Of a stretch of DNA of 39,237 nucleotides, positions 11,420 to 38,502 are shown piece by piece. Location: assembly GCA_947628005.1 (NCBI GenBank), contig CANQYI010000008.1, positions 1 through 39,237 on the forward strand, in the 5' to 3' direction. The notes below the pieces were generated by a model, which was not told the origin of the DNA, made no database searches, and saw only the letters and a list, made by a program, of their open reading frames with translations. The position numbers were made by a program, and so were the translations under genes. This DNA comes from an uncultured Clostridia bacterium (GTDB lineage: Bacteria; Bacillota; Clostridia; TANB77; CAG-465). Within the stretch, counting starts at the first letter, position 1; the number at the start of each line of letters is the position of its first letter.

Positions 11420-11803
11420 TCATTCACTATTATTTTTAGCATTAATAATGTTTTTTAAACTTGTAATTATTTCATATATTCCAATTATTATCATAAAACA
11501 ATAAAACATATTTTTCAGTATATTCTCGTCTATTGCTCTTACTATTAATATTCCTGTTATACTCCCGATACATGTTGGAACTACTAATTTTTTTAATAAT
11601 TTTTTATCAATTTTTTTATTTTTTAAATTAAATATCGTAGCAGCAATTCCAACAGCAATAAACATTATTAAATTATATGCTTGAGCAACTTTATGTTCAA
11701 ATATATTAAACATCGTTGTAATCAAAATAAATATGCTTCCTCCACCAACACCCATTCCTGCGAGTATTCCACAAAATATAGAGCACAATATTAACACAAA
11801 CAT
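11420..11803 (-). CDS. TauE/SafE (DUF81) permease half, C-terminal partner
   Basis: A 127-residue membrane protein with about four helices. It opens with the TauE/SafE repeat signature: a helix followed by GILAGMGVGGGSIFIL, where the GxGGG turn is diagnostic. Full family members contain two such repeats in about 250 residues and export sulfur compounds or organic anions. Here each repeat is a separate gene, and this one begins eight bases after the other half's stop, with AGGTG as its ribosome site. The two halves probably form a heterodimer. No disrupted fusion junction is seen, so this looks like a genuinely split transporter rather than a frameshift. Confidence 0.8.
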   Translation of the reverse strand: MFVLILCSIFCGILAGMGVGGGSIFILITTMFNIFEHKVAQAYNLIMFIAVGIAATIFNLKNKKIDKKLLKKLVVPTCIGSITGILIVRAIDENILKNMFYCFMIIIGIYEIITSLKNIINAKNNSE

Positions 11804-11811
11804 AGAAACAC

Positions 11812-12153
11812 CTACTTAAAAAATTTATAAATTGTTAAACCTGTAATTAAAATGCCAGAAAATAAATTTAATATATTTGCTGGAATTTTTTTCATCAACT
11901 TTGTTCCTATAATTCCAGAAATACAGGATATAATAATTAGTGTAATAACTTTTACTAAATCATAATTTGCTATTTTACTATAGCCTATTATTGCAAATAT
12001 GCTTGATATAGATAATATAGATACACTAAGAGCTCTGGATTCATGAGTTTTCATATGTTTTATAAAAATTAAATAAAAAACTAGTATTTGTCCAGCACCA
12101 GCTGCAAACATTCCATTTAAGATACCAACTATAAAACCAATAACATAAATCAT
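11812..12153 (-). CDS. TauE/SafE (DUF81) permease half, N-terminal partner
   Basis: A 113-residue membrane protein with about four helices carrying the TauE/SafE repeat motif GILNGMFAAGAGQILVFYLI near its start. GIIGTKLMKKIPANILNLFSGILI matches the conserved end of such repeats. It precedes the other half by eight bases. No good ribosome site is seen before its ATG and no clear promoter between it and the preceding terminator, so it may depend on read-through from the SpoIIID-like gene. Substrate unknown. Confidence 0.75.
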   Translation of the reverse strand: MIYVIGFIVGILNGMFAAGAGQILVFYLIFIKHMKTHESRALSVSILSISSIFAIIGYSKIANYDLVKVITLIIISCISGIIGTKLMKKIPANILNLFSGILITGLTIYKFFK

Positions 12154-12171
12154 AATATTATTATTTGTATT

Positions 12172-12211
12172 TTAAAAAAAAATAAACCAGAATAATGTTA
12201 TTATTCTGGTT
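12172..12211 (-). terminator. Strong terminator of the SpoIIID-like paralog
   Basis: AACCAGAATAAT (12185-12196) pairs with ATTATTCTGGTT (12200-12211) with a three-base loop, followed on the minus strand by a run of nine Ts. It lies eight bases after the stop of the gene at 12220. Confidence 0.85.
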
Positions 12212-12219
12212 AAAAAAAT

Positions 12220-12489
12220 TCATATTATATTTTTCATTTGACCCAACCGCAAGTATTTCTTTCTAGTTGCTAGTCCGCCTCTTATGTGACGCTCGGCCTT
12301 ATTCCTTTGTAAGATTTCCTCGACCTTCAGGCTTAGCTCCTTGTCTACACTTGGCAAGATGTGTTTCATCCGATAATGCACCGACGTTTTAGAATTCCCC
12401 ATGATATTAGCTACTTGCCGAACTGTACACTGAGTAGATACTAAGATACCTGCCTCCTGAATTGCAAGTTCTTGAATTTCTTTTTTCAT
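12220..12489 (-). CDS. SpoIIID-like DNA-binding regulator, second copy
   Basis: An 89-residue protein aligned end to end with SpoIIID: a helix-turn-helix at about residues 22-43 (TVRQVANIMGNSKTSVHYRM) and the family's basic C-terminal block ERHIRGGLATRKKY (about 66-79). SpoIIID activates or represses mother-cell genes during sporulation. The canonical copy is at 30365-30628. This paralog differs in the recognition helix (NSKTSVHYRM versus ISKSTVHKDI) and lies alone with its own housekeeping-type promoter and terminator. Its DNA is far richer in GC than its surroundings: a hand count of 12241-12480 gives 105 of 240 (44%), in a region otherwise under 30%, with codons ending in G or C. This suggests recent acquisition. 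The target set cannot be inferred. Confidence 0.85.
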   Translation of the reverse strand: MKKEIQELAIQEAGILVSTQCTVRQVANIMGNSKTSVHYRMKHILPSVDKELSLKVEEILQRNKAERHIRGGLATRKKYLRLGQMKNII

Positions 12490-12540
12490 TTTGCTTCCTC
12501 CTAATTAAATTTAATTTAAGTTAACAAAAAACTTGTAATA

Positions 12541-12569
12541 ATTATACCATAAATTTGATGTTATTTCAA
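12541..12569 (-). promoter_or_regulatory. SigA-type promoter for the SpoIIID-like paralog
   Basis: TTGAAA (12564-12569) and TATAAT (12541-12546) on the minus strand with a 17-base spacer. This implies vegetative expression rather than the SigE control usual for spoIIID. Confidence 0.7.
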
Positions 12570-13336: not shown

Positions 13337-13365
13337 TTGCATTTTTTAAAGAAAAATGTTATAAT
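13337..13365 (+). promoter_or_regulatory. Promoter of the OLE RNA
   Basis: TTGCAT (13337-13342), a 17-base spacer and a perfect TATAAT (13360-13365). A start about seven bases downstream coincides with the 5' strand of the closing helix of the RNA (13371-13379). Confidence 0.75.
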
Positions 13366-13370
13366 ATATA

Positions 13371-13952
13371 TTGATGGTGCATTATTCTAGTTACACTATC
13401 TATTATGAGGGTGGGGCTAAAAATCCACTAAATGGCACATCGTTGAAGTTCCTTGTTTGTGCGCGATACGCCCAGTTTTGTGCGCTTTCAGGGAGTAAGA
13501 AAATAGGGTAAAATATAATGGCATGTATTGTATCCCTACTTTCGCGGAGGCTTATTTAAAAAGTTATAATATTTTCTTAAATAAGTATAACCTATGTAAA
13601 GTGCCAAGACACGATGCATAGTGTAGCCTGTCTTGAGTGATAATATTGGGATTTATTTATACTAATTATTAAATAAAGTGGCCATTTATTAATAATTACA
13701 TTAATGAAATTATTATTGCAAAAAAGACTAGTAATGGTTTTTAGTGTATTAAGGAAATCTTCTAGAATGTTTGCTTTCTAAGCTTGATTATTTAAGGATT
13801 AAGGTATGGATTTAAGTGGCGATCTAGTTTTCTTATAGGTGACTTAAGAATATTTCTTTTAAATGGAAACAGCTAAACAGTAATGTTTAGTAGGAAATAG
13901 AGAAATTCTACTAGACCTAAACCATAAAATTTACTTAAATAATCACCATCGG
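13371..13952 (+). ncRNA. ole: OLE (ornate, large, extremophilic) noncoding RNA
   Basis: A 600-base stretch with no coding frame, GC-richer than nearby spacers and dense in helices. It lies between a consensus promoter and a gene for an OapA-like membrane protein. The 5' GATGGTG (13373-13379) is fully complementary to CACCATC (13944-13950), so one helix closes the whole molecule and sets ends giving about 580 bases, close to the roughly 600 bases known for OLE RNA. Other helices seen: 13551-13559 with 13577-13585; 13605-13611 with 13629-13635; 13873-13878 with 13885-13890; 13888-13893 with 13908-13913. OLE RNAs sit next to oapA in Firmicutes, bind OapA at the membrane, and are linked to stress tolerance (cold, ethanol, magnesium, carbon source). 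Identification rests on size, structure and the adjacent gene, not on an alignment. Confidence 0.85.
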
Positions 13953-13978
13953 TTCTTTTTTTTTGGAAAGGTATTTAT

Positions 13979-14539
13979 ATGAAGACTAAAAAACAAGATA
14001 ATAAATCAGAAGATAGTTCGTCGAATATTAAATGGATAATAACTGTTCTAATTGTAACATTTTTATTATCATTATTATTTTCTTATATCTCTACTGAGCC
14101 TATAAAAAAATTAAATTTATTTCCTGCAATTATAATTTTATTTGCAGTTTTAATTTTGGGTGTAATTTTTGATATAATTGCTGTCGCAGTTACAGTAGCA
14201 GAAGAAGAAAACTTCCATGCAAAAGCTACAAAAAAGGTAAAAGGTGCAAAGACATCTGTAAAATTAATTAGAAATTCACATAAAGTTTCTAATTTTTGTG
14301 CTGACGTAATTGGAGATATATGTGGTGTATTAAGTGGAGCAATCAGTGCAATTATAGCAAGTAAAATTGCAGCTTCTTATAATATTTCATTTAATATACA
14401 ATTTATAATAAGTGCGGTTGTTGCCTCACTTACAGTTTCCGGAAAAGCTGTTGGAAAGGTAATTGCCAAAAAGTATAGTACAAATATAGTAGATAAAGTA
14501 AGTAAATTTTTACATTTCTTTAGAATAGAAAAAACTTGA
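13979..14539 (+). CDS. oapA: OLE-associated membrane protein OapA
   Basis: A 186-residue integral membrane protein with helices at about 18-36, 47-72, 115-132 and 137-158, and Lys-rich cytosolic ends. A DxxxD motif (Asp109 and Asp113 in ADVIGDIC) matches the conserved DxxxD of OapA (Asp104/Asp108 in the Bacillus halodurans protein), whose mutation gives a dominant defect. The conserved basic segment before it (KATKKVKGAKTSVKLIR, 82-98) is a candidate RNA-contact region. The gene begins 27 bases after the end of the OLE RNA, with AAAGG upstream of its ATG. In known systems OapA binds OLE as a dimer. It probably shares the OLE promoter; the T tract at 13955-13964 between them lacks an obvious local hairpin. 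Confidence 0.85.
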   Translation: MKTKKQDNKSEDSSSNIKWIITVLIVTFLLSLLFSYISTEPIKKLNLFPAIIILFAVLILGVIFDIIAVAVTVAEEENFHAKATKKVKGAKTSVKLIRNSHKVSNFCADVIGDICGVLSGAISAIIASKIAASYNISFNIQFIISAVVASLTVSGKAVGKVIAKKYSTNIVDKVSKFLHFFRIEKT

Positions 14540-14558: not shown

Positions 14559-15774
14559 ACATTCCTGTTTTAGGCAATTCAATTTTAGTTTCTACTGGTG
14601 CCTTTTGATTTACAATATTTAAAGCTATACATTTTCCATATTTTAATTTAACAATTATTGGTGTATTATTTAATAAATAACCTTCAGGAACACTTATTTC
14701 TTGTACTCTTACACTTATATCGTCATGTATATTTAAATCTTTTCTAAAGTCTATTTTTATTTTTCCAGCTTTATCTGTCACATATTCTCCTAAGACTTCA
14801 CCAGTTTCATTATTGTATAGCAAAAATTTAACACCCTCTAATGGAATTTTTGAATCATCAGTTTTGTTAATTTCTAGTTCTAATTTATCATATTTTATTT
14901 CAACATTATTTACTATTTCCTTTTCTTCATATTCTGCTAAAATCATAGCTACGTCTTGCATAGTACTATTTACTGGTACACCAGCTTTTACCTTTAAATT
15001 TTTATATTTTGCTATAAATTTTAAATCTATGTTTTTGTTTTTATCTACTAATTTTACTGGGTATAAAACAAAAATTTCACTCTTATTTGTTAAGTTTTCT
15101 ATATCATTTAATTTTTCATCTACAATCCTTATGTTTTTATCTTTTATAGCTTTATCAATTGAAATTATATCTCTACCAACCTGTAAAGAAAATTTAATTT
15201 TATAGTAATCTACATTTGATACTGTTATAATTTCACTAGATACTTTTTCTATATTAAAAGTGGTATCTTGATTTACTACTTTATCTTTTGAATTATATAT
15301 ATTAATTATTGCTTGCTTTACTAATTCAGATTTATCATTTATATTACCTATTTTTGATATATCTAAGCTATTGGTATATACCCATAAAGCAAATTGTGTT
15401 GCAAATTTTGCTTGATTTTCATCTTCAAGTCCTAGCTCAGTATAACTTTTATATGGGTATCCATTGTTTAATATATTTATTATATTTTGATCACTTTCAT
15501 ATTCATTTGCATAAACCTCATATCCATCTGTTGTCTTTTCTGCTCCATCTTTTGATAAAGTTTTGCAATATACATCTTTTCTACTGCCAGACTCATCAAT
15601 ATAATAATAATCAAAAAATCTTTGAGATATATCATTATAAGATATATATCTATTTTCATTTTTATTATATTGCACTTTATATACGCTAAGTTGGCTTGCC
15701 AAACTAAAATTTGACAGCAACAAATTGAAAATTGCCACTATAAACATAGTAGTAATTATTTTTTTCTTTTTCAT
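14557..15774 (-). CDS. Secreted thioester-domain adhesin with SpaA/Cna-B domain and terminal LPKTG
   Basis: A signal peptide (1-27, cleavage near LASQ) is followed by a TQXA thioester domain (about 40-170). Cys70 in DVYCKT and Gln127 in FATQFALW are the pair expected to form the internal Cys-Gln thioester used for covalent binding to host or surface amines. A middle region without clear homology follows. The last domain (about 298-398) is SpaA/Cna-B-like, with candidate isopeptide residues Lys304 (EINKTD) and Glu359 (VQEISVPEGY). It ends ELPKTGM and stop: an LPxTG sorting motif with no hydrophobic helix or basic tail after it, and the DNA beyond runs straight into the terminator. Its 5' end overlaps the sortase stop by four bases, so the pair is an operon. 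Confidence 0.85.
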   Translation of the reverse strand: MKKKKIITTMFIVAIFNLLLSNFSLASQLSVYKVQYNKNENRYISYNDISQRFFDYYYIDESGSRKDVYCKTLSKDGAEKTTDGYEVYANEYESDQNIINILNNGYPYKSYTELGLEDENQAKFATQFALWVYTNSLDISKIGNINDKSELVKQAIINIYNSKDKVVNQDTTFNIEKVSSEIITVSNVDYYKIKFSLQVGRDIISIDKAIKDKNIRIVDEKLNDIENLTNKSEIFVLYPVKLVDKNKNIDLKFIAKYKNLKVKAGVPVNSTMQDVAMILAEYEEKEIVNNVEIKYDKLELEINKTDDSKIPLEGVKFLLYNNETGEVLGEYVTDKAGKIKIDFRKDLNIHDDISVRVQEISVPEGYLLNNTPIIVKLKYGKCIALNIVNQKAPVETKIELPKTGM

Positions 15775-16355
15775 TTATTTTCCTCCTCATATTCTACAGC
15801 TTGCACACATAGCCTTAAATCTGGTCTATTATCTATACATGTAATAAGAGTTATTCTATTATCTGGAGTTGGCTCCAAATATGACCAATCGTAAGAATCT
15901 ATCTGCTCTTTTAAGCAAACTTTATATTTGTAAGTTTTTTCTTTATACTTATAAATTATTTCATCTCCTATTTCTAGCTTATATATGTCAGAAAAATAAT
16001 TTGCATCGTAACCCCTATTATGTGCTGCAAGTCCAATATTACTCTTATCAAATTCTGTATTTTCAAAATGTCCTATATAACTTTTTAAAACATCTTGTGA
16101 TGTTCCCTGTTTAATATTTGCCGATATTAAATTTATTTTTGGAATACTTAACTGCCAACAATCAATTAAATCTACTGTTGTAGCATTTGTAAAGCTATCT
16201 TTGTTATCTAAAGTATTCAATTTGTAGTTTTTTACATACTCTTTGGAAATTTTATCTTTATAAGAAAAAAAGCTTAAAAATGAAATTAAAATTAATAATA
16301 ATAAAAAAATGATGACTAAAAATATGGTTCGATTAAAATGATTTTTTTGTTTCAT
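15771..16355 (-). CDS. Sortase
   Basis: A 194-residue membrane-bound transpeptidase that joins LPxTG proteins to the wall or to each other. It has an N-terminal membrane helix (about 10-31) and a sortase beta-barrel with IPKINLISANIKQG. The catalytic His112 is in LAAHNRG, Cys173 in TLITC and Arg181 in RPDLRLCV. Length and motif spacing fit the compact class D-like sortases of Clostridia, but the class is not certain. It is first in a two-gene operon, and its likely substrate is the adjoining adhesin, whose start overlaps its stop. Confidence 0.9.
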   Translation of the reverse strand: MKQKNHFNRTIFLVIIFLLLLILISFLSFFSYKDKISKEYVKNYKLNTLDNKDSFTNATTVDLIDCWQLSIPKINLISANIKQGTSQDVLKSYIGHFENTEFDKSNIGLAAHNRGYDANYFSDIYKLEIGDEIIYKYKEKTYKYKVCLKEQIDSYDWSYLEPTPDNRITLITCIDNRPDLRLCVQAVEYEEENK

Positions 16356-16406
16356 AAATCTCCTTAAAATAAATTTGAATAAAAAATAGAATTAAATTAC
16401 ATTTTC

Positions 16407-16435
16407 ATTATATATCTAGAATGCTTATTTGTCAA
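16407..16435 (-). promoter_or_regulatory. Consensus SigA promoter for the sortase-adhesin operon
   Basis: Perfect TTGACA (16430-16435) and TATAAT (16407-16412) on the minus strand with a 17-base spacer, about 50 bases upstream of the sortase ATG. Confidence 0.8.
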
Positions 16436-16461
16436 TAAAAATCGGTCGCAATATTCGACAT

Positions 16462-30364: not shown

Positions 30365-30628
30365 TTATACCGCCTCTTCACGAGCCCTCTTTTCAACATA
30401 TTTTCGCTTAGTAGCCAATCCTCCTCTTATATGCCTTTCTTCTTTATTGTGCATTAAAACTTTTTTAGCTTCATTTGCTAGTGATGGATTAACCTTTTCA
30501 AGTCTTTCTGCTATATCTTTATGAACAGTAGATTTACTTATATTAAATTTTTTGGCTGTTTGTCTTACTGTACTTTTAGTTTCTATAATATAACTTGCTA
30601 ATATTTTTGCTCTCTCTTCTATATCCAA
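30365..30628 (-). CDS. spoIIID: Sporulation transcriptional regulator SpoIIID
   Basis: An 87-residue mother-cell regulator. The helix-turn-helix is at about residues 20-42 (TVRQTAKKFNISKSTVHKDI). The basic C-terminal helix ERHIRGGLATKRKYVEKRAREE completes the DNA-binding surface known for this protein. The start is a TTG preceded by AAGGAGA at good spacing; an ATG just upstream is followed at once by a stop. It lies between spoIIQ and mreB, the conserved order. A GC-rich paralog is at 12220-12489. Confidence 0.95.
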   Translation of the reverse strand: MDIEERAKILASYIIETKSTVRQTAKKFNISKSTVHKDIAERLEKVNPSLANEAKKVLMHNKEERHIRGGLATKRKYVEKRAREEAV

Positions 30629-34278: not shown

Positions 34279-34767
34279 TCATGCTACATCTGTAAACAAA
34301 TATTTAAGATCACCAAATGAATCCTTTTCAATTATGCTAAGGATGTAATTTACGTCAGGAATCAAAATAAATTTATGGAAAGCTTTTTTACCCATAGACT
34401 GGGCAATTTTTAACAAATGAATTACTCTTGTAATCTTCTTTACATCACACCTCTTTATATTTTTATATTTACTAGGTAACACACTACGTTTAATTTCATC
34501 AGGTAATTTCCCATGAGAGAGAGTTTTGCATACAACATTATAATCTTTATTTCTTTTGGAAATACGTATATTATAATTGTAGTCTGCCTCAGTAGTATCA
34601 TACTCACTTATGAGTTCTTTTACCCACTGAATTCTATCACCGATGAATCTTGAATTTTTGTGTACCTGTTCTATTTGGAACACATTCTCGTAGTATTCAA
34701 TAAGCTGCATCGTCTCCGGCTTAAAGCAATACTCCTCTTCATAATCGTGATAGTTCTGACTGGTCAT
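34279..34767 (-). CDS. Orphan protein of unknown function
   Basis: 162 residues from the ATG at 34767, soluble, rich in Tyr, Lys and Ile. The start is acidic and aromatic (MTSQNYHDYEEEYCF); the C-terminal half is basic (PSKYKNIKRCDVKKITRVIH) and helical. No known family was recognised; a nucleic-acid-binding role would be a guess. The frame is open to a TTG at 34824, but the AGGAGG at 34776-34781 fits only the downstream ATG. It has a perfect promoter and a structured leader. The 5' end is somewhat GC-richer than its surroundings (26 of 60 at 34681-34740); the rest is near 30%. Confidence 0.6.
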   Translation of the reverse strand: MTSQNYHDYEEEYCFKPETMQLIEYYENVFQIEQVHKNSRFIGDRIQWVKELISEYDTTEADYNYNIRISKRNKDYNVVCKTLSHGKLPDEIKRSVLPSKYKNIKRCDVKKITRVIHLLKIAQSMGKKAFHKFILIPDVNYILSIIEKDSFGDLKYLFTDVA

Positions 34768-34794
34768 AACGACATTCCTCCTGTAAGTAACATT

Positions 34795-34841
34795 AGAGTG
34801 TATCTCAAAATTACTGAATTTCAAGAGATATTTCTAACTCT
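34795..34841 (-). promoter_or_regulatory. Structured 5' leader of the orphan gene
   Basis: On the transcript AGAGT and TATCTC pair with GAGATA and ACTCT to form a two-part hairpin covering the leader between the promoter and the AGGAGG site (34776-34781). No T run follows, so it is not a plain terminator. It may control translation or mRNA stability. Confidence 0.45.
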
Positions 34842-38067: not shown

Positions 38068-38502
38068 TTATTTCCAATTGTGTCTCCTACAGGTACCCCT
38101 ATTCTCAGAGTTTATTTTTTTATTAATATTTTTCACTCTGGCTCTAAGTTCCATAATACTAGGAACCTTTTGCATTAAACTGTAGGCAACATCATAGCGT
38201 CTCTCAGTAAGAGAGTACATAGCCATAAATTGCTGTTTACCAAGTTCTGAAGTAGCAATTTTTGAGGCCAACCTAAAGGTTGGAAACCTGGTAGTTTTAA
38301 AAACCAAGTCATAAAGGTCATCCCTTTCGTAGGAAGGTCGCTGTTCTATATGTTCGATCACTTTTGTTTCTATACTGATCTCTGCATTTTCGAACCGCTG
38401 AGTATCTTTTGCATTGCTTTCAATCAACGCATCATACCTTTTTCCTTCTTTTAACTCCTCGATGAACTTAGGCACATCAACTTCTTCTTTTCTTGCTAAC
38501 AT
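38068..38502 (-). CDS. GC-rich orphan protein of unknown function
   Basis: 144 residues, highly charged, soluble, with predicted helices and no membrane segment. ERDDLYDLVFKTTRFPTFRLAS and GKQQFMAMYSLTERRYDVAY are its most distinctive stretches; the basic C-terminus is NKKINSENRGTCRRHNWK. No family was recognised. The DNA stands out: a hand count of 38161-38400 gives 95 of 240 G+C (40%), in a region otherwise under 30%. It is monocistronic, with its own promoter, AAGGAAG site and terminator. The composition resembles that of the second SpoIIID-like gene and suggests transfer. Confidence 0.65.
   Translation of the reverse strand: MLARKEEVDVPKFIEELKEGKRYDALIESNAKDTQRFENAEISIETKVIEHIEQRPSYERDDLYDLVFKTTRFPTFRLASKIATSELGKQQFMAMYSLTERRYDVAYSLMQKVPSIMELRARVKNINKKINSENRGTCRRHNWK

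Follow-up and report, generated by a model that had tools for sequence, protein, structure and literature searches.

A putative moron-like cassette encoding an accessory SpoIIID-family protein in an uncultured Clostridia bacterium

Results

A second SpoIIID gene with its own promoter and terminator

We analyzed a 39,237-nucleotide stretch of DNA (the window) from the metagenome-assembled genome (MAG) of an uncultured gut bacterium of the class Clostridia (assembly GCA_947628005.1, contig CANQYI010000008.1). On its minus strand lies an accessory SpoIIID-like gene, here named spoIIID2, together with the elements expected of an independent transcription unit and, elsewhere in the window, a canonical spoIIID copy:

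12541-12569, minus strand: sigma-A-type promoter with extended -10, TTGAAA-17-TG(G)TATAAT, top-scoring in the region (11/12 plus TG)
12497-12502, minus strand: strong Shine-Dalgarno sequence AGGAGG, read from the sequence
12220-12489, minus strand: spoIIID2, 89 codons with an ATG start (ORF, PF12116 match, AF2 model)
12355-12393, minus strand: recognition helix codons, residues 33-45, SKTSVHYRMKHIL versus SKSTVHKDIAERL in the canonical copy (alignments; model helix 34-48)
12185-12211, minus strand: intrinsic terminator AACCAGAATAATaacATTATTCTGGTT plus T-run, 12 pairs, 8 nt past the stop codon (terminator scan)
30365-30628, minus strand: canonical spoIIID, for comparison (PF12116, 121 bits), adjoining a SpoIIQ-like M23 gene and mbl

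SpoIIID2 matches PF12116 over its full length (78.7 bits, E 3.7e-22, profile positions 2-79 of 82; gathering cut-off 27 bits) and aligns without gaps to residues 5-81 of B. subtilis SpoIIID (2L0K; E 8e-12), its sole clear PDB relative by sequence. An AF2 model (pLDDT 90.7) places the recognition helix at residues 34-48, and a PDB fold search with this model returned 2l0k as the only match at E<0.001 (TM 0.72, E 6e-4). These data bear out an initial annotation, made from the sequence, of a full-length SpoIIID paralog: SpoIIID2 is a true member of the family, with a predicted SpoIIID fold. Its bit score is under the TIGR02844 equivalog cut-off in NCBIfam (71.6 versus 111.5), as is, slightly, that of the canonical copy (109.4).

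In fold, length, HTH position and C-terminal RHIRGG-type basic region, SpoIIID2 resembles SpoIIID (PF12116; 2L0K). It differs in sequence identity (38-41%; 38% to the canonical copy in the window) and in its recognition helix, where the change noted in the initial annotation is evident: the HTH scaffold is kept, and HYRM stands where the canonical protein has HKDI, so that HKD is replaced by HYR. A whole-genome search found just two SpoIIID genes above cut-off, spoIIID2 and the canonical copy. Because both Spo0A and SpoIVA are found in the genome, the host has a sporulation programme.

When we scanned the 116-nt gap between spoIIID2 and the upstream M23 gene for sigma-A-type promoters, we found TTGAAA-17-TGGTATAAT, which matches 11 of 12 consensus positions in addition to the extended -10, and whose -10 begins 57 nt before the ATG. 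None of 2000 dinucleotide shuffles of the gap equalled it, in agreement with the housekeeping-type promoter proposed earlier. The strong terminator that had also been proposed corresponds to the 12-pair hairpin at 12211-12185; terminators number 4 in the region against 0.9 expected. Read in the order promoter, Shine-Dalgarno sequence, ORF and terminator, spoIIID2 would be monocistronic. The same scan found no sigma-A-like promoter in the 61-nt gap upstream of the canonical copy.

spoIIID2 sits between TauE and M23 genes, 18 kb from the canonical copy with its SpoIIQ-like gene and mbl, and is thus located away from the sporulation locus, as first described. Location beside mbl is not universal, and some canonical copies in the order also lie elsewhere. 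The neighbours of spoIIID2 are ordinary chromosomal genes rather than those of a phage or prophage. We found neither a transposase nor an integrase near the gene, and repeats flanking it are short and at chance level.

Two other features of this neighbourhood are worth recording. The TauE/SafE exporter is encoded by two adjacent half-size genes (11420-11803 and 11812-12153, minus strand), a pair kept in 28 of 28 genomes of the genus. A full-length OLE RNA (RF01071, 367 bits) lies at 13358-13965 on the plus strand, 870 nt from spoIIID2, and on its 3' side is a gene (13979-14539, plus strand) whose position and CNNM-like match mark its product as an OapA-like membrane protein; this pair was not found in nine related loci that we scanned.

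spoIIID2 has foreign codon usage

The initial annotation had counted 44% GC by hand over 12241-12480, and the computed value is exactly 0.4375, far above that of the neighbours. In 437 kb of this 27% GC genome, only 25 of 14,418 windows of 240 bp reach this value, nearly all of them at two other loci. In 50-base steps, GC is 0.24 downstream of spoIIID2, 0.48 within its 3' end and 0.16 directly upstream of its start, so the step coincides with the coding region while the flanks, promoter included, are AT-rich.

Using codon frequencies from long ORFs in the same 437 kb as a reference, we calculated a GC3s of 0.40 for spoIIID2 compared to 0.116 predicted from its amino acid sequence (z = 8.2). 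Its codon index of 0.349 is the third-lowest among 432 ORFs; ORFs of 80-110 aa average 0.67. Codon usage thus does not match the genome average; a match had been named beforehand as the outcome that would refute acquisition. Both TauE half-genes, the M23 neighbour and the canonical spoIIID (z 0.7) show native codon usage.

Relatives of SpoIIID2 are distant and its distribution is sporadic

We searched for relatives of SpoIIID2 in 757 genomes (chiefly members of the same order and class), plasmids, phages and viral contigs from IMG/VR, and found none above 51% identity. The best matches in the 757 genomes share 44-51% identity and are mostly canonical SpoIIID proteins of other lineages; plasmid, phage and IMG/VR matches reach 49% at most. 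A pattern scan of genome contigs and viral contigs found no close relative. We considered plasmid matches and set them aside: the replicons are large and non-mobilizable, and the encoded proteins have a canonical helix. All 28 genomes of the genus have the TauE pair, and in none of the other 27 does spoIIID2 lie beside it. The gene is also missing from 17 loci of named uncultured Clostridia MAGs with the downstream gene in common, 10 of which have the TauE pair. We could not use these loci to demonstrate an empty site, as the region upstream of TauE holds differing genes in each relative; one (L207) carries, by eye, a phosphosulfate-reductase-like/ParB-like gene set. spoIIID2 itself is known from one MAG.

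SpoIIID appears among the sporulation genes of gut phages (PMC10294663), and the SpoIIID-family PHROG 11726 is assigned to the category "moron, auxiliary metabolic gene and host takeover". Like these phage-carried genes, several of whose loci we inspected, spoIIID2 is an accessory family member additional to the host copy. This likeness, together with the retained C-terminal basic region, raises the idea that SpoIIID2 is a phage-derived host-manipulation trait: produced ahead of the mother-cell programme or outside it, the protein would occupy some of the canonical SpoIIID operators and either restrain sigma-E and sigma-K genes or disturb their timing. We consider such a sporulation modulator unlikely: most phage copies inspected retain HKD, which SpoIIID2 has lost; spoIIID2 is chromosomal, with no phage genes around it; and the nearest listed phage record shares 48.8% identity and comes from a scaffold with an mbl-like ORF, so it may itself be a bacterial fragment. 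The sigma-A-type promoter and the changed helix lead us to favor instead a regulator that would act outside the mother-cell programme.

In a phylogenetic tree, the canonical copy falls within a supported clade of the family's canonical proteins (98/100) that excludes SpoIIID2. SpoIIID2 forms a long branch, and at 89 aa is too short for tree placement; an AU test forcing it beside the canonical copies did not reject this grouping (p_AU 0.15). The proposed check for an ordinary lineage-specific duplicate therefore gave a divided answer, with the tree leaving SpoIIID2 outside the clade and the AU test tolerating it inside. An old duplicate of the host spoIIID that diverged, relocated and gained unusual codon usage from some local cause strikes us as improbable, since a GC3s of 0.40 is not readily reached by drift where other genes are near 0.12. 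Horizontal acquisition of spoIIID2 as a single gene, which the initial annotation had suggested, appears well supported by its codon usage, its own promoter and terminator, and the absence of an orthologue in the genus. The case for import is thus one of composition and distribution, not of phylogeny.

Accessory SpoIIID genes recur across the order

Two SpoIIID matches were listed in about 49 of 385 genomes, some of which may represent halves of a split canonical gene. We compared 15 second or orphan copies, SpoIIID2 included, with 104 other copies. A promoter scoring at least 11 precedes 9/15 accessory copies versus 0/104 others, and a terminator follows 10/15 versus 26/104; the recognition helix carries HKD in 2/15 versus 101/104. 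A second set, fetched afterwards, shows the same pattern: of the 22 copies that lack HKD, 15 have such a promoter, located 37-66 nt upstream of the start, compared with none among 13 canonical-type copies. GC3 is also raised (0.28-0.47) in five copies that combine HKD with a promoter of this kind, and in two sister species (G030 and G034) the accessory copy has a GC3 of 0.37-0.38 versus 0.16-0.20 for its neighbours. Several accessory copies are of native composition and not GC-rich, as expected if acquisition events vary in age.

Although spoIIID2 is found in this single species genome and accessory copies elsewhere are very divergent, we regard a recently landed foreign gene now drifting without a role as highly improbable, given the intact ORF, confident structure model, perfect Shine-Dalgarno sequence, near-consensus promoter and terminator, and the recurrence of accessory copies in many genomes.

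We noted further arrangements of SpoIIID genes in the order. In two genera (L070 in G028 and L072 in G022), an accessory SpoIIID-like gene is divergent from the same large gene starting MLCSVCKKNMAV, perhaps a shared ancestral site. At another locus (L009/L041, G023:C19), two tandem SpoIIID genes lie by mbl, both with a canonical helix, reflecting a local duplication or a tandem arrangement.

In many genomes of a sister family, the canonical gene is also broken in two at its recognition helix. G320 carries the 5' and 3' halves on a single contig, separated by 18.4 kb and reading in the same direction (L311, G320:C8:9000-28900, 14687-16460; N-terminal half in L332, G320:C8:6715-6843), and a large serine recombinase with Resolvase, Recombinase and Zn-ribbon domains ends at the 3' half. 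Split genes also occur in L312, L315-L325, L060, L061 and L063. The arrangement resembles an intervening element of the skin or gin type; in a literature search, such elements were described for sigK, gerE and spsM, and spoIIID was not among them.

Other single-gene cassettes in the same genome

Ranking ORFs by GC3 revealed other atypical genes with the same anatomy as spoIIID2, about 20 small genes in all. A promoter-only search covering 837 kb of the 1.2 Mb genome identified 51 cases in which a strong extended -10 promoter precedes a Shine-Dalgarno sequence and an ORF. Mean GC3 is 0.31 for genes with a -10-to-start distance of 52-63 nt (n=17) and 0.17 for the others (n=34; Mann-Whitney p = 6e-6, a partly post hoc and optimistic value, as the range was chosen after the first members had been seen in the same genome). 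In a related genome (G019), the association between leader length and GC3 is absent and a cassette class is not evident.

Besides spoIIID2, two cassettes lie in the window, and further members are elsewhere in the same genome (G000):

34279-34824 and 38068-38502, minus strand, in the window: single genes of high GC3 and no assigned family, arranged like spoIIID2, with terminators and with promoters close to consensus
L188:11132-11575, L183:17116-17565, L180:5609-6091, L177:15698-16180, L184:4510-5184, L186:4148-4351, L251:9678-9977, L268:9927-10295: further cassette members

Most of the cassette genes tested match no Pfam or PHROG family, and two of them (38068-38502 in the window and L188:11132-11575) have no homologue in 56 relatives. 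L183:17116-17565 encodes a weak SpoIIID-like HTH (13.8 bits), and TTATGTAAA is common to several cassette promoter spacers. Separately, L260:1087-4833 (G000:C2) holds three tandem genes for similar proteins with repeats that look ankyrin-like by eye, each with its own near-alike TTGAAATATA...TATAAT promoter 71-73 nt from the ATG.

Discussion

SpoIIID is regarded as one regulator, produced in the mother cell under sigma-E control. spoIIID2 departs from this picture in its sigma-A-type promoter, its position away from spoIIQ and mbl, and its foreign codon usage. In its anatomy it resembles a phage moron, a single gene with its own promoter and terminator and an atypical composition. With morons, spoIIID2 shares a promoter, one ORF, a terminator and odd GC; it differs from them in lying outside a prophage and in having about 20 like cassettes scattered in the genome, many with the 52-63-nt spacing from -10 to ATG.

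We propose, with a probability of about 0.62, that spoIIID2 was acquired horizontally as a moron-like cassette of one gene, which encodes a vegetatively expressed DNA-binding regulator of SpoIIID fold with its own specificity. The cassette would comprise a strong sigma-A promoter, a leader of about 50 nt, a Shine-Dalgarno sequence, one small ORF of foreign composition and a terminator, residing outside any recognizable prophage in the chromosome of its host, an uncultured Clostridium that forms endospores. Judging from the sigma-A-type promoter, SpoIIID2 is most likely made in growing cells, independent of sigma-E. The predicted fold and the conserved C-terminal basic region suggest that it binds DNA, and the changed recognition helix points to a different operator; SpoIIID2 may thus serve as an accessory regulator, repressing or activating genes through its own operator set. 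As a secondary effect, it might also interfere with targets of canonical SpoIIID.

More tentatively, and with the odds somewhat against it, the genome might collect about 20 stand-alone foreign "chromosomal morons" with a stereotyped promoter-to-start spacing, dispersed by a route that involves no obvious transposase. One cargo recurring throughout the order would then be the accessory SpoIIID-like regulators, whose recognition helices have diversified and which together would make up a set of interchangeable DNA-binding proteins driven by sigma-A.

In our judgement, spoIIID2 is more interesting as a member of a recurrent class than on its own. If our reading is correct, the recurrence of extra SpoIIID-fold proteins with housekeeping-type promoters and altered helices would mean that uncultured Clostridia have repeatedly recruited or imported this fold for other control tasks, with the extra copies escaping the usual spore-specific timing. 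A further implication would be a form of single-gene transfer after which no mobile-element genes remain.
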